Below are positions 28,693 through 34,529 of a stretch of DNA of 36,411 nucleotides, piece by piece. Positions within the stretch are counted from its first letter, which is position 1; every line of letters begins with the position of its first letter. Under the pieces are notes generated by a model. The model was not told where the DNA came from. It searched no databases and worked only from the letters and a program-made list of their open reading frames with translations. Position numbers and translations under genes: made by a program. This DNA comes from a virus, in the IMG/VR virus record IMGVR_UViG_3300022198_004043, positions 1-36,411 of that record; one strand, 5' to 3'.

Positions 28693-29445
28693 ATGTCTGA
28701 TTCCACACACTCAATCATAAAGTCTCTCTTCCACATACAACAGGAAATCAACGCACCCAAAGGAAAGTATAATTCCTTCGGGAAATACATGTACAGGAGC
28801 TGCGAAGACATCCTTGAAGCCGTCAAGCCTTTGCTTCTAAAAAATAAATGCATCATTCTGCTTTCTGATGAATTAGTGGAGATCACTGGCGATACCTACA
28901 TAAAATCTACAGCAGGACTTATTTGCTCGGAAACAGGGAACAAAATAGAGAATGTTGCATTTGCGAAAGAACCTAAATCCAAGAAAGGGATGGATGAATC
29001 ACAAATAACTGGGTGCACCTCTTCGTATGCCAGAAAGTACGCATTATGTGGACTGCTCGCAATTGATGACAACAAAGATCCAGACTCCATAGAGGAAGGC
29101 GTGGATAATGCCGATTCAAAAAAGAAAGAGCAATCTCCGCAACATCCACAACATAATGAAAAGCCAAAGACAGAAGGCGACCTATGGACAACCTGGAGAG
29201 AGTATCCAATTCCGTTTGGTAAAAATCAAGGGATTCTATTAGGATCATTAAATGAAAACCAACTTGAATGGTACTGTAAAAATGTGGGTGGCGACCAACC
29301 AGAATTCCATAAGTGGATAACCGAGGCATACAATGAGGTATTTGCCAACAGAAAATCCCCAGAACAATCAACAAGCGTAACTGCACCACAACAACCCAAT
29401 ACCGGTGCAGGAAGCGATGAAGAGGATGACGATGTCCCATTCTGA
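28693..29445 (+). CDS. erf: ERF-family single-strand annealing protein with DUF3820-like domain
   Basis: 250 residues. Residues ~8-130 fit the ERF annealing family (GKYMYRSCEDILEAVKPLLL; TGCTSSYARKYALCGLLAID, the hallmark SYARKYAL motif). Residues ~168-198 (EYPIPFGKNQGILLGSLNEN, then QLEWYCKN) match the DUF3820 pattern, a small domain often fused to recombination proteins. The C-terminus ends SDEEDDDVPF, like the acidic tip of SSB that recruits repair partners. It anneals homologous single strands during recombination-dependent replication, probably with the nuclease encoded next. There is no ribosome binding site, and the start is only 12 bases from the divergent gene. Confidence 0.85.
   Translation: MSDSTHSIIKSLFHIQQEINAPKGKYNSFGKYMYRSCEDILEAVKPLLLKNKCIILLSDELVEITGDTYIKSTAGLICSETGNKIENVAFAKEPKSKKGMDESQITGCTSSYARKYALCGLLAIDDNKDPDSIEEGVDNADSKKKEQSPQHPQHNEKPKTEGDLWTTWREYPIPFGKNQGILLGSLNENQLEWYCKNVGGDQPEFHKWITEAYNEVFANRKSPEQSTSVTAPQQPNTGAGSDEEDDDVPF
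28714..28740 (-). promoter_or_regulatory. Candidate promoter for the late (packaging/head/tail) operon
   Basis: On the minus strand TTGTAT (28740-28735), a 15-base spacer and TATGAT (28719-28714; 5 of 6 consensus -10 bases). It lies within the start of the ERF gene, as it must because the divergent starts are only 12 bases apart. The spacer is short, so this is tentative. Confidence 0.3.
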
Positions 29446-30580
29446 AGAAGAGGAACTTAAGTTTCCGGATGACATTGATTTTTCCGACGAAAGACTGGGG
29501 CTTCCGTCCGCCTCCGGAATAGAGTCTTACATGCTGTGCCATGGTAAATTTGGTGCAGAGAAAGGAATGCCGGAGATAAAAGTTGATGATGGATCCGATG
29601 AAGGCTCAGAAAGACACTTGCTCGCACAGTATAACATCTCCCCTGCTCTTCTAAGGAATGTGGAGCACATTAAGTGCGTGGAGAAGGCAAGGGAATGTAT
29701 TGAAAAAGTACGAGGAGAAACCATTAAAGGCCACGGATACATATGGACCGAGGAACGCCTTCCGCTCGTTGACCGAGGGCAAATCCCATTCCTTACCGCA
29801 AAGCTGGATTATGCCGAAATTGTGCCACAGAATCAACGTGCACTCATTGTTGATTACAAAATGCTTTATGGGTTTCACACTCCTGCATACATGAACCCAC
29901 AACTATTCACTCAAGGGGCAGCACTTATGCAAAAAAACAAGTCTCTCACTGAGGTCTTTATGATGCTGTGCAATCCCCTTCTGTATCCAGCATACTCCAT
30001 TACCATGTTCCGTAGAGATGATGCCCAAAACTGGGCAAATGAAATACGGAAACTCTCACTCAAAATTCGCACCGGACAACAACCAAGAACCCCAGGGTTC
30101 AAGCAATGCTTCCACTGCAAGGCACTCACCGCATGCCCTGAGGCAATAGAAATGATAGATGAATTTATGCATGATGATATTGAAAAACTATTCAACGACC
30201 CAAAGCATGCCAAGCGTGCGTATGAAATGGGTAAACTTTGTGAGCAGTTCGCCAAGAAAACAAAGGCACTTGCCAGAGATCGACTAATGGTAGGGACTGG
30301 ACGGATAAAGGGATACAAGCTCTCTAAGCCTTCCATGACTGCTGAATATGACGCTAAGGAGCTTTTCCGTGCTCTACAAGATAGAGGGTTTGATATGCAC
30401 ACCATTGCTAAGACCACAGACATTGTGGAAAGCAGGCTCATTGAAGAGTGGTCAAAGAAGACAGGAACTTCATTGAGTGAATCCAGAGAGTCCTTAAGAT
30501 CTGTCATGATCAAGGAGAACGCATGTAAAATGGTGCCTACCCGGGCAAAAATTATTCGTGACGCAACGCAACCAGCATAA
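29432..30580 (+). CDS. PD-(D/E)XK (RecB/Cas4-like, DUF2800-type) nuclease
   Basis: 382 residues from ATG 29432, with AGAGGA 5 bases upstream; ATG codons at 29405, 29417 and 29426 are in frame. The opening LPSASGIESYMLCHG and GSERHLL follow the family's N-terminal pattern. Asp ~126 (TAKLDY) and Asp ~141/Lys ~143 (IVDYKMLYG) make the PD-(D/E)XK core, followed by a QLFTQGAAL helix. Cys ~36 with C226-x2-C229-x5-C235 (FKQCFHCKALTACPEA) could hold an iron-sulfur cluster as in Cas4/AddB. Expected role: exonuclease making 3' single strands for the ERF protein, whose gene it overlaps by 14 bases. Confidence 0.8.
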   Translation: MSHSEEEELKFPDDIDFSDERLGLPSASGIESYMLCHGKFGAEKGMPEIKVDDGSDEGSERHLLAQYNISPALLRNVEHIKCVEKARECIEKVRGETIKGHGYIWTEERLPLVDRGQIPFLTAKLDYAEIVPQNQRALIVDYKMLYGFHTPAYMNPQLFTQGAALMQKNKSLTEVFMMLCNPLLYPAYSITMFRRDDAQNWANEIRKLSLKIRTGQQPRTPGFKQCFHCKALTACPEAIEMIDEFMHDDIEKLFNDPKHAKRAYEMGKLCEQFAKKTKALARDRLMVGTGRIKGYKLSKPSMTAEYDAKELFRALQDRGFDMHTIAKTTDIVESRLIEEWSKKTGTSLSESRESLRSVMIKENACKMVPTRAKIIRDATQPA

Positions 30581-30989
30581 ATACGGGGTTTCCAAAAAAG
30601 AGGACAGAATTGCTGATGGAATCCTTTTTGGATCTAAGCTGGAGAAAAATGGATATGTTCTATTCCGTGACTCTATCGGCCTGGACAGAATCATACTTCA
30701 GCCAAGATTTGAACTGCAGCCAAAATTCAAATTTCAAGGCAAAGGCATCCGTGCTATCCACTACATAGCCGACTTCCTTATTGATTATCATTACGTAATC
30801 GACACAAAAGGAATACTGACTCCTGAGTTCCGGATAAAAGAAAAGATCTTCATGCGGAAGTTTCACCGCCCTATCGTGATTCTTAAATCACAAAAGGCAA
30901 TACGTGAGTTTATTCAGGATCTTCGATCTTCCTTGCGACTCGACCCTTCAGCACAACAGTTCCGGTCTGTATTCGTGTCTCAATCTTAA
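30558..30989 (+). CDS. DUF1064-type PD-(D/E)XK nuclease / resolvase-like protein
   Basis: 143 residues from GTG 30558, overlapping the previous gene by 23 bases. It follows the DUF1064 pattern: KYGVSKKEDRIADGILFGSK with Glu ~29 (LEKNGYVLF), then LQPRFELQPKFKF, Asp ~72 (HYIADFLI), Asp ~82/Lys ~84 (VIDTKG) and a basic helix (EFRIKEKIFMRKF). These residues form a nuclease-like active site; the family is often linked to Holliday-junction or branch processing in phages, but its substrate is not settled. Its 3' end overlaps an opposing gene by 80 bases. Confidence 0.75.
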   Translation: MTQRNQHKYGVSKKEDRIADGILFGSKLEKNGYVLFRDSIGLDRIILQPRFELQPKFKFQGKGIRAIHYIADFLIDYHYVIDTKGILTPEFRIKEKIFMRKFHRPIVILKSQKAIREFIQDLRSSLRLDPSAQQFRSVFVSQS

Positions 30990-31140
30990 CCCACTTCCTT
31001 TTCGGAGGTATGCCATGATCGAGATATTCCTTCCGTATCATTGCCCCGATATCTCCAATCCTAAACTCTTCACCCCTCTCAAGAAGTCGATATCCTTCCG
31101 GAAGCGGAGGGGCTGGCAGAATGCAAAATTTCCAAAACAT
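30910..31140 (-). CDS. Small antisense gene, 'PEGYRLLExGE' type phage protein
   Basis: 76 residues opposite to all surrounding genes. PEGYRLLERGEEFRIGD (residues ~14-30) matches a motif seen in many small phage proteins of unknown function. It is followed by a basic β-rich tail (KRKWVKIETRIQTGTVVLKG). The 3' end overlaps the DUF1064 gene by 80 bases tail-to-tail. A TTGACA-type -35 lies just upstream of the ATG. The conserved motif makes it likely real despite its position; function unknown. Confidence 0.65.
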   Translation of the reverse strand: MFWKFCILPAPPLPEGYRLLERGEEFRIGDIGAMIRKEYLDHGIPPKRKWVKIETRIQTGTVVLKGRVARKIEDPE

Positions 31141-31147
31141 AAAATAA

Positions 31148-31188
31148 TTCAGTCCCTTCTTTCAAAAACTGTCAATTTTAATTTGACT
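31148..31188 (-). promoter_or_regulatory. Candidate promoter for the antisense gene, with dyad
   Basis: On the minus strand TTGACA (31176-31171), a 17-base spacer and CTGAAT (31153-31148), 7 bases before the ATG at 31140. GTCAA (31172-31176) and TTGAC (31184-31188) form an inverted repeat around the -35 box, a possible operator. The -10 match is poor (3 of 6). Confidence 0.35.
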
Positions 31189-31353
31189 CTTGGTATTATT
31201 TCTCCATTTTTTACGCATTGGTTAAATTTGTTTTCTACTTTGTAATCAATCAAGACTCTTCCTTGGAGTTCTCATAAGACCTACGCCACGCTTCAGACAC
31301 ATGGCGAATGATGTTGGAATCACATGGTCTTTTCTAAGGGAGAGTTTTTTTAT

Positions 31354-31380
31354 TTGACACTTCCTTTTCGGTTTTATCTT
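31354..31380 (+). promoter_or_regulatory. Candidate promoter for the replication genes
   Basis: TTGACA (31354-31359), a 15-base spacer and TATCTT (31375-31380). A GAGGA follows at 31383-31387 but is too far (about 21 bases) from the initiator ATG to act as a good ribosome binding site. The -35 box is perfect; the spacer is short and -10 is 4 of 6. Confidence 0.4.
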
Positions 31381-31408
31381 TTGAGGACTCCAACATCTAA
31401 AAAAGCCC

Positions 31409-32299
31409 ATGTGTCTAATAAAACTACATCAGGCTTGGAACTGTCAGACCCTGACAGGCACTACCAAGCTCGTCTTAATGTCCCTGGCCGACGATGCCAG
31501 CAAAGAAGGCTTAGCGACCTCCTCGCTATCCTCAATAATGAAGCAATCAAATTGCAGTGACTCAACCGCTCGCAGAGCAATAAAGGAACTGGAGGAAAAG
31601 GGATTTGTCCAGATACTCAGATCCGGAGGAGGTAGAAACGTCACTGAATATTTCGTGAATCCCATCGCTGATTCCGGCCTCGAAAAATCAATTCTTGAGG
31701 GGTGTCAAAATGATAGGGGTGTCAAAATGACAGGGGGTGTCAAAATGACAGGGGTATCCCCTACTGATAATCAGGGCTCAGAGCCTGAGGGGTGTCAAAA
31801 TGACAGGGGTGAATTACCTATGGTGTCCTCCCCCCTCTCAGACTCTCCCCCCACCCACGTTGGGGGAGTGCGTATGGGTACGCATGAGGAGGGCGATTCC
31901 GGTAGCGACAGGAAGGGCAGGAAGGCACCAAAGGGAAAGCATCCTTTACCGGACGACTGGTATCCAAACGAGCACAGCATTAACGTATGCCGGAATATCA
32001 TGAGGCTAAACCTTCAGATAGCAATGGAGCTTTTTATGAACTGGGCAAAAGGCAAGGGCAAGTTGTACGTTGACTGGGATATGACATTTCAGAACGCTTG
32101 CCGGAAGTGGATCCCAGAAACTCCCAGTGCATTACTGGTGAACACGCCAGAAGACGTGGCCCAGCAAAAAACAATGGATTTTACCATCGACAGCGACAAG
32201 GAGTTTGTCGAGTGGATGAAGGAGCGGGGTTACTGGCAAGAAGGAAGATCTCCTGAAGCCTTAGCGGATTATCGTGAAATGTTTGAAATGGGAGTTTAA
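31409..32299 (+). CDS. Replication initiator, lambda O-like, containing the origin
   Basis: 296 residues. Residues ~18-85 are a winged helix (TKLVLMSLADDASKEGLATS, IMKQSNCSDSTARRAIKELE, KGFVQILRSGGGRNVTEYFV). Residues ~95-175 are low-complexity and encoded by iteron DNA. Residues ~178-235 (LPDDWYPNEHSINVCRNIMR ... DWDMTFQNACRKWI) match the C-terminal motif shared by many phage O-like initiators. The gene lies 3 bases before a DnaB-type helicase gene. Known O proteins bind iterons inside their own gene and recruit the helicase; the arrangement here is the same. The start has no close ribosome binding site. An internal ATG (31478) would cut into the winged helix. Confidence 0.8.
   Translation: MCLIKLHQAWNCQTLTGTTKLVLMSLADDASKEGLATSSLSSIMKQSNCSDSTARRAIKELEEKGFVQILRSGGGRNVTEYFVNPIADSGLEKSILEGCQNDRGVKMTGGVKMTGVSPTDNQGSEPEGCQNDRGELPMVSSPLSDSPPTHVGGVRMGTHEEGDSGSDRKGRKAPKGKHPLPDDWYPNEHSINVCRNIMRLNLQIAMELFMNWAKGKGKLYVDWDMTFQNACRKWIPETPSALLVNTPEDVAQQKTMDFTIDSDKEFVEWMKERGYWQEGRSPEALADYREMFEMGV
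31441..31457. promoter_or_regulatory. 17-bp palindrome at the start of the initiator gene (possible operator)
   Basis: CTGTCAG-ACC-CTGACAG is a perfect 7-3-7 inverted repeat within the first 50 bases of the coding region. It contains the same TGTCA/TGACA half-sites as the iterons 250 bases downstream (there spaced by 3 rather than 5), suggesting the initiator may bind here and control its own gene. Confidence 0.5.
31699..31809 (+). repeat. Four iterons plus three palindromes: likely replication origin core
   Basis: The core TGTCAAAATGACA, itself a dyad (TGTCA-AAA-TGACA) and flanked by GGGG, occurs at 31703-31715 (one change, ATGATA), 31720-31732, 31738-31750 and 31793-31805. The first three repeat every 17-18 bases; the fourth is set apart. 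The gap holds three 11-base inverted repeats in a row: GGGGTATCCCC (31751-31761), CTGATAATCAG (31764-31774) and GGCTCAGAGCC (31775-31785). They lie inside the initiator gene, as in lambda. Confidence 0.8.
31845..31884. other. Two adjacent hairpins to the right of the iterons
   Basis: CTCCCCC (31845-31851) pairs with GGGGGAG (31862-31868). It is followed immediately by TGCGTA-TGGG-TACGCA (31869-31884), a perfect 6-bp stem with a 4-base loop. Being 36 bases after the last iteron they may be part of the origin, for example a primase or host-factor loading structure. Confidence 0.5.
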
Positions 32300-32302
32300 G
32301 CA

Positions 32303-33739
32303 ATGAGAGATACAGAATTACCATTTGACCAATCCGCACAAGGCAGCAATCCGCTTATGAGGGTCACTCCGCATAACGTAGGAATTGAGGAGGCGTGGAT
32401 TGCAATGCTTTTTATGGACTCAAGCCTTATCGATAAGGCTATCGAGGGTGGAATTACCCATGAGTACTTCTACAGCACGAAATGCCGGATCATTTACAGT
32501 ACCATCACCAACCTTTGGAAAACAAACAACCTGAATGAGAATGGGGGGATTGATGAGCTTTCAATTGCTCAAGAACTCAAGAATATCGGGATGTCTGAAG
32601 AGGTTGGTGGATTCAGTGAAATCACGAGAATAACCTCCTCTGCGGAAACGGCAACTTTCTTCGAAACCTACATGGGATACATTCAGGGGTTTCATCATGT
32701 TCGGTCTTTGATATCGGTTTGCAATGAAACGCTGGATGCCGCCTATTCGAATAGTCCGGTAATGAGCCTTTTGGCCGATGTTGACCAAAAGGTAAGCTCC
32801 ATATCAATGTCAGCACTTGCGGTAAAATCGATTCACAATAGCAAGGAGGTTGCCGCAAACGCAAAAGAGATAATCCGGCTAAGAAAAGAAAACCGAGGCG
32901 TTACAGGGGTAACTACGGGCCTTGAGGATCTGGACGGGATCCTGAAGGGATTTAAGCCTTCAGAATTGACATATCTCGTAGCACGGCCATCGACCGGAAA
33001 GACAGCCCTCTCACTCCATATCACCAAGCATGCCGCTAAGCACTTTGGAAGCGTCCTGTACTTCAGCATCGAAATGAGTCACGATCAACTTGGGTGCCGA
33101 ATGATTCAGGCAGAGTCAGGCGTTCCATTCAGGCTCATGGATGACGGACTGCTCAACAAAGTTCAGGAGGCTCAGATTGATGAAGCCAGCGACCGAGTTG
33201 GAGAGTTGCCGATTTACATTGATGATTTCAGCTCACCGACAATGTCTCACATTCGGAGTCGGGCCAGAAGGTTCGCCAATATCGGTCTCAAGCTTATTGT
33301 CGTGGATTACATGCAGTTGATTCAAACAGAGAACCCAAGGACATCCAGAGAGCAGCAGGTTGCCGAAATCTCACGAGGATTGAAGGCACTGGCAAAAGAC
33401 CTGAGCGTTCCTGTTTTGTGTCTCGGGCAATTGAATCGAGATATTGAAAAGGGCGGGAACCGGAAACCCAAACTCTCTGACATAAGGGAATCCGGACAGG
33501 CTGAACAAGATGCGGACGTAGTGCTTGCCCTTTGGCAGGAAAGGCCCGATATCAGGGATTGCGTAGACTGTGCGGTACTGAAGCAACGGAACGGGCCAAT
33601 CGGGGATATCAAGATCAACTATCAGCGAATGACTCAAAGATTTACGAAATACTTAATGCCTAAGGTGGAAACCTCCGATGTGCCTACATCTTGGGCAGGA
33701 TCAACTCACACGGCACGTCAGGAAAGGACGTTTGAATAA
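32303..33739 (+). CDS. dnaB: DnaB-type replicative helicase
   Basis: 478 residues; hexameric 5'-3' helicase that unwinds the fork. The N-terminal DnaB domain spans ~25-150 (IEEAWIAMLFMDSSLIDKAI). The RecA-like domain has Walker A ARPSTGKT at ~227-234, SIEMSHDQLGCRM (helicase motif 1a) at ~255, Walker B LIVVDYMQLI at ~331-340, and SREQQVAEISRGLKALAKDL plus LSDIRESGQAEQDADVVL with the arginine finger region near the end. GGGAG lies about 10 bases upstream; it starts 3 bases after the initiator stop and shares a base with the SSB start. No separate loader gene was seen, so the initiator may load it or it may self-load. Confidence 0.93.
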   Translation: MRDTELPFDQSAQGSNPLMRVTPHNVGIEEAWIAMLFMDSSLIDKAIEGGITHEYFYSTKCRIIYSTITNLWKTNNLNENGGIDELSIAQELKNIGMSEEVGGFSEITRITSSAETATFFETYMGYIQGFHHVRSLISVCNETLDAAYSNSPVMSLLADVDQKVSSISMSALAVKSIHNSKEVAANAKEIIRLRKENRGVTGVTTGLEDLDGILKGFKPSELTYLVARPSTGKTALSLHITKHAAKHFGSVLYFSIEMSHDQLGCRMIQAESGVPFRLMDDGLLNKVQEAQIDEASDRVGELPIYIDDFSSPTMSHIRSRARRFANIGLKLIVVDYMQLIQTENPRTSREQQVAEISRGLKALAKDLSVPVLCLGQLNRDIEKGGNRKPKLSDIRESGQAEQDADVVLALWQERPDIRDCVDCAVLKQRNGPIGDIKINYQRMTQRFTKYLMPKVETSDVPTSWAGSTHTARQERTFE

Positions 33740-34173
33740 TGTCAGGATTCGTAAAAATAACTGCGGTAGGAAATCTTACCGCAGACCCCAAGCATCAAAT
33801 TGTTGGGCAAAATCAAACCAGCAAATGCGAGTTTCGCATTGCTGTAACACCTCGGAAGGATGGGCCTACCTCATTCATTCCGTGTGTAGCGTGGAAAGGA
33901 ACCGCAGACCTCGTATCTAAGTACCTCGAAAAGGGATCAAAAGTACTGGTCCATGGAGAGTGGTCTCAAGATCAGTGGGAAGCTCAAGACGGATCCGGAA
34001 CAAGGCAGAAGGACTATATTACGGTAAATGATGTAGTATTCCTGGGTAGCCCAAATCAAGGCCAACAGACGCAGCAGGCTCAACCGCAGGCTGGATACCA
34101 TAATCAAGGACAGCAGGGACATCGGCCTCCTCCGCCTGCTGGGTACAATAATAACGGCTTTGGGCCTCCGTGA
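33739..34173 (+). CDS. ssb: Single-stranded DNA-binding protein lacking the acidic tip
   Basis: 144 residues. Residues 1-104 form the OB-fold (VKITAVGNLTADPKHQIVGQ; CEFRIAVTP; FIPCVAWKGTADLVSKYLEK; GSKVLVHGEW; ITVNDVVFLG), matching bacterial SSB. The tail is Gln/Gly/Pro-rich and ends GYNNNGFGPP, without the usual DDDIPF-type tip that binds repair and replication partners. Start ATG shares its A with the helicase stop; AAGGA is upstream. Coats single strands during replication and recombination. Confidence 0.9.
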   Translation: MSGFVKITAVGNLTADPKHQIVGQNQTSKCEFRIAVTPRKDGPTSFIPCVAWKGTADLVSKYLEKGSKVLVHGEWSQDQWEAQDGSGTRQKDYITVNDVVFLGSPNQGQQTQQAQPQAGYHNQGQQGHRPPPPAGYNNNGFGPP

Positions 34174-34453: not shown

Positions 34454-34529
34454 GTCAGGGTAGAGCAGTTGGTAGCTCGCCAGGCTCATAACCTGGAGGT
34501 CGGGGGTTCAAGTCCCTCCCCTGCCACCA
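34454..34529 (+). tRNA. tRNA with CAU anticodon, initiator-like
   Basis: A 76-base cloverleaf with encoded CCA. D stem GAGC/GCTC, anticodon stem CCAGG/CCTGG with loop CTCATAA (anticodon 34487-34489), T stem GGGGG/CCCTC with loop TTCAAGT, acceptor GTCAGGG/CCCTGCC with a T·C mismatch at pair 2:71. The A11:U24 pair and the loop/D-arm layout are features of initiator tRNA. But pair 1:72 is G:C (not mismatched) and the anticodon stem lacks three G:C pairs, so it is a hybrid. It could be elongator Met or Ile2 (lysidine-modified). The next gene starts 15 bases downstream. Confidence 0.93.

Follow-up and report, generated by a model that had tools for sequence, protein, structure and literature searches.

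An SSB-type acidic tip on the ERF-family annealing protein of a phage whose SSB is tipless

The predicted ERF-family single-strand annealing protein encoded in the window, the whole 36,411-nucleotide stretch of viral DNA analysed here, ends in SDEEDDDVPF (...TGAGSDEEDDDVPF), which closely resembles the acidic tip of bacterial single-stranded DNA-binding protein (SSB). The SSB of the same phage ends in GYNNNGFGPP (...PPPPAGYNNNGFGPP) and lacks such a tip. Both ends had been read in this way in the first-pass annotation and were confirmed. That annotation knew of no description of such a swap for ERF proteins, and literature searches that covered mainly openly available main texts found no ERF with an SSB-type tip. 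We regard the tipped ERF as a genuine variant of a known annealing protein, kept by selection and apparently not described before; our confidence in the sequence facts is high, and the function that we propose below is deduced from them.

ERF and SSB of the window phage

The features of the window on which the analysis draws are as follows, all on the + strand.

28693..29445, +, ERF-family single-strand annealing protein gene (predicted; 250 aa; PF04404 E=8.2e-39, phrog_155 E=1.3e-42, Rad52-type core fold)
28693..29092, +, ERF/Rad52-type core, residues about 1-133 (pLDDT mostly >90; PF04404 match 10-155)
29179..29346, +, small DUF3820 (QSregVF_b)/ExoX-C-like domain, residues about 163-218, containing the motif PFGKNQG (PF12843 below cut-off; predicted structure)
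29347..29424, +, low-complexity tail of ERF, residues 219-244 (mostly pLDDT <50)
29425..29442, +, SSB-type acidic tip DDDVPF of ERF (from sequence; the counterpart DDDLPF is invariant in a second lineage)
29429..30580, +, PDDEXK-type exonuclease gene (phrog_69, DUF2800), likely start codon within the ERF tip codons
30558..30989, +, Holliday-junction-resolvase-like gene (DUF1064, phrog_190; family matches)
32303..33739, +, DnaB-type replicative helicase gene (PF03796 E=1.9e-76)
33739..34173, +, SSB gene, 144 aa, OB-fold present, acidic tip absent (PF00436 E=4e-20, 72.2 bits, cut-off 26)

The match to PF04404 scored 133.5 bits against a cut-off of 25. For the structure of the protein we used a model based on 68 sequences, as an 8-sequence model was poor. 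VIA alignments of the core, covering 108-123 residues, gave Z scores of 10.9 with Gp77 (9y6u, in the RAZR complex), 8.5 with human Rad52 (1kn0) and 8.2 with Sak of 80alpha (8qe9); Foldseek searches with the ERF model were weak, with a best E of 0.011 for yeast Mgm101. According to the model, the core has the Rad52-type annealing fold. The protein resembles other members of the ERF family (P22 Erf, HK97 Erf) in core sequence, in this predicted fold and in its position in a phage recombination module, but differs from the Erfs of HK97, S9-5 and phiC2 in having both the acidic tip and a domain with a PFGK motif.

That small domain, which lies between core and tail and had been overlooked in the first-pass annotation, follows a linker of low model confidence and was modelled as a hairpin and two helices, with pLDDT of about 74-84 in the helices and lower values in the hairpin region. 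PF12843 reached 14.8-16.1 bits here, below its curated cut-off of 22 bits, and a best E of 1e-6 in the second ERF lineage described below, where ExoX-C also matched. Profile A2, which represents both lineages, additionally matched stand-alone DUF3820-like and exonuclease-type proteins in bacterial genomes. Residues about 219-250, mostly with pLDDT <50, form an acidic tail that is predicted to be disordered. The protein thus has the features of the bacterial SSB C-terminus (DDDIPF in E. coli), namely an acidic run and a hydrophobic-Pro-Phe end at a free C-terminus behind a flexible linker, but it carries them on an annealing protein instead of an OB-fold SSB.

In the window SSB, no aspartate or glutamate occurs after residue 104. 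An SSB-type tip was absent from the other two frames just downstream of the gene, which rules out a single frameshift hiding a tip, and a frameshifted SSB tip was accordingly rejected. The contig IMGVR_UViG_3300025646_000096, 99.987% identical over 23.7 kb, adds about 18 kb to the phage, and across it and the window the ERF is the sole protein with an SSB-type tip. The evidence for the window-type tip comes from this one phage, in two near-identical contigs. A database search with the window ERF as sole query returned the same phage only, and its C-terminal half alone gave no usable match among GenBank phages. The large terminase of the phage had weak matches only. Within the replication-initiation gene of the window, a GGGGTGTCAAAATGA-type direct repeat occurs four times at positions 31696-31811, similar to the lambda-O-type iterons that mark origins, and a tRNA-Met (CAT) gene lies at 34454-34529, just 3' of the SSB region.

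Tip distribution in ERF loci and a second tipped lineage

ERF relatives were gathered from IMG/VR, GTDB genomes and GenBank phages. In the first set of complete ERF ORFs (n = 168), 165 were tipless and the 3 tipped ones all came from the window phage. By a lenient rule, 61 of 69 distinct SSBs in ERF loci carried a tip, and among the eight that failed, four looked truly tipless: those of the window, L131 and L148 and the second SSB in L117. A strict rule ([DE]..[DE][ILVMF]P[FWY] at the protein end) was satisfied by 20 of 3669 distinct genes of ERF loci that were neither ERF nor SSB, about 0.5%, a background against which the ERF tip is more than chance; several of these 20 proteins, moreover, had the low-complexity linker ends typical of small ssDNA-binding proteins. 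Small proteins outside the SSB family that adjoin ERF were often tipped, for example in c2 e16 (DIPDEQLPF) and ESCO41 (FEDDIPF). Tipless ERFs together with tipped SSBs or small neighbours indicate that, as a rule, the tip sits on the ssDNA-binding partner and not on ERF. Three small ERF neighbours that are not annotated as SSB (L199:3594-3938, L200:3627-4070 and L203:3608-3937), ending in DIPDEQLPF, FEDDIPF and GDIKIPF, respectively, look like unrecognised ssDNA-binding proteins.

When degenerate DNA patterns for an ERF core with the PFGK motif after it were scanned for, 20 viral contigs came up besides the window phage. These contigs are near-copies of one another, and a Fisher p-value for which approximate counts had been entered is for both reasons given no weight. 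The ERFs of all 20 end in DDDDLPF or SDDDLPF and share 38-41% identity with the window ERF along their full length. Both lineages share the layout of a Rad52-type core, a PFGK domain, a variable tail and a DDDxPF tip. The first-pass annotation had proposed comparing homologous C-termini; the tip is kept in this distant second lineage and absent from the 165 other ERFs. A single clade for the window and second-lineage ERFs was not rejected (AU p 0.817), and a quick tree was poorly resolved; strictly separate origins of the two tips are unsupported.

A search for PF00436, the usual SSB family, found no gene in any of the 20 contigs, two of which are as long as 43 and 46 kb; the contigs may be fragments, and other SSB families were partly covered. 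In the four longest records, which were scanned for tips, the ERF was the only tipped protein. In L187, one of the contigs of this lineage, erf is bordered by Mu Gam-like and replication-initiation genes.

Conservation in the second lineage was uneven along the protein. Invariant columns made up 92 of 125 in the core, 39 of 50 in the small domain and 3 of 43 in the tail, and all 6 of 6 in the tip (DDDLPF), where the terminal Pro-Phe is conserved beside the acidity. Across the lineage, a winged-helix (HTH_39) gene (L187:4641-4913) starts within the ERF tip codons. Changes in these codons were synonymous in the ERF frame, keeping DDLPF, and read MTYLS, MTYHS or MICHS in the overlapping downstream frame. 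Because the changes are silent for ERF and alter the other frame, the tip is maintained as ERF protein sequence, and on this codon pattern we regard the second-lineage tip as kept by selection.

Proposed function of the ERF tip

On bacterial ssDNA, repair and restart enzymes are recruited mainly through the SSB tip. The C-terminus of SSB is also recognised by RecT-type proteins (PMC10711431), and the six C-terminal residues of the SSB of phage HK620 load the annealing protein Sak4 on ssDNA (PMC5928155). Like HK620, the window phage would have an annealing protein working through an SSB-type tip; in HK620 the tip is on SSB and recruits Sak4 in trans, whereas here it is on the annealing protein itself.

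We put it at about an even chance that ERF docks SSB-interacting enzymes directly, acting as the ssDNA docking hub of the phage and replacing the SSB hub. A Rad52-type annealing protein would then have gained a tail in the style of SSB, with DDDVPF at the end of a flexible linker, and many such tips would be exposed wherever ERF forms rings or filaments on ssDNA. Host proteins that normally bind the SSB C-terminus (e.g. PriA, RecO, DnaG or exonuclease I) could dock there, as could a partner from the phage, for instance the exonuclease encoded next to erf, and repair or restart enzymes would be brought straight to the annealing site. In this phage and in the second lineage, in which no SSB gene was detected, the annealing protein itself carries the tip, whereas the usual phages have a tipped SSB that acts in trans. 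Docking, its partners and the replacement of the SSB hub are inferred, and docking is the best supported of the possible functions because conservation extends to the terminal Pro-Phe as well as to the acidic run. If ERF does carry the recruitment tag, annealing and the summoning of the finishing enzymes could be combined in a single protein. How some phages do without a tipped SSB would then have an explanation. Such a protein could also help to make recombineering proteins less dependent on host SSB, and it would be relevant to phage defence systems directed against phage recombinases.

A different role, which we judge fairly unlikely, is that of an internal DNA mimic: the acidic tail would compete with DNA for the ERF core, curb non-specific binding and free the annealed duplex. 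The tail, flexible and acidic, would suit this role, and there is a precedent in E. coli Hfq, also a strand-annealing protein with an acidic tip: there the tip attaches to the basic surface used for annealing and makes duplex release faster (PMC5606850). Hfq anneals RNA, however, and its tip has been shown to bind its own core, as the ERF tail would do in this reading. The Hfq tip (DSEETE) moreover has no Pro-Phe end, whereas the LPF or VPF of the ERFs is as conserved as the aspartates, with synonymous changes only, and about 153 distinct other ERFs manage without an acidic tip. Docking and self-inhibition could both be served by one ERF tail.

The tail might instead specifically recruit the phage's own exonuclease or replication proteins and not host SSB partners, which seems to us improbable. 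In favour of such recruitment, the exonuclease gene of the window comes immediately after erf and overlaps it, probably starting inside the ERF tip codons, and the annealing protein and exonuclease of lambda Red act as a pair. In the second lineage, by contrast, the gene in this overlapping position encodes a winged-helix protein and not an exonuclease, and the tip therefore does not track one phage partner.

We consider it very improbable that the xPF end serves as a degron, by which ClpXP would keep the lifetime of the annealing protein short. The idea has a basis in some Streptococcus mutans strains, in which the last three residues of SsbA, LPF, suffice for ClpXP degradation (PMC5143411). 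In that study, E. coli, S. gordonii and S. sanguinis did not recognise the LPF degron, and no VPF end was noted; the DDD run is dispensable for degradation, yet it is conserved in the ERF tip. Least credible of all is a by-product of gene overlap or of chance at the ERF end: the next gene does start within the tip codons in both lineages and tips do arise in about 0.5% of unrelated genes, but this reading is largely refuted by the overlap substitutions, synonymous for ERF and partly non-synonymous downstream, and it has to accommodate DDIPF tips on two other ERFs.

Other tipped ERFs and annealing-protein families

These two ERFs, in L260 and L261, were found besides the window phage in three scans for an ERF core followed by DD[ILVMF]PF-stop at ERF lengths of roughly 188-252 aa, and they have no PFGK domain. 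Further scans, in which PFGK was allowed a shorter linker or tips were sought on shorter ERFs, gave no match. As the core part of the pattern recognises 144 of the 168 test loci, of which 106 fall within the length windows, tipped ERFs are rare. A further candidate, L259, was rejected, since its untipped ERF is followed by a small tipped protein.

The L260 phage has a tipped ERF and a tipped SSB together, and no PF00436 gene was found in the 34.5 kb of L261. A tipless SSB stands beside a tipless ERF in L131 and L148. The swap that the first-pass annotation had proposed, with the tip on ERF and not on SSB, therefore holds for the window phage but is not general, given both tips in L260 and neither in L131 and L148; across the sequences compared, it is a tendency and not a rule. 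Three of the four lineages with a tipped ERF yielded no tipped SSB in contigs that may be incomplete, and this fits replacement of the SSB hub, with four lineages as the whole sample.

Proteins of phrog_10048 also end in acidic xPF: DLDNLPF in L214 (796-2004), EEDDVPF in L256 (from 4001) and EQDGVPF in L258 (from 4001). Those of L214 and L258 resemble the window ERF further in having an FGK-type ExoX-C/DUF3820-like motif, but phrog_10048 has no detectable sequence relation to ERF, and homology between them was rejected because sequence support was absent. The family may be another group of annealing proteins with SSB-type tails. Only tentatively, and with the balance somewhat against it, we suggest that in a class of phages the docking hub has passed from SSB to the annealing protein (ERF, perhaps phrog_10048), so that the recombinase would recruit the SSB-interacting host enzymes and a tipped phage SSB would be unneeded.

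Short ERFs of about 150-170 aa in IMG/VR (L016, L029, L033, L049, L063, L084 and others), near which SSB was undetected, recurrently end in EDLF, PTEF or DAFDGLM, which are possibly weaker tail signals.
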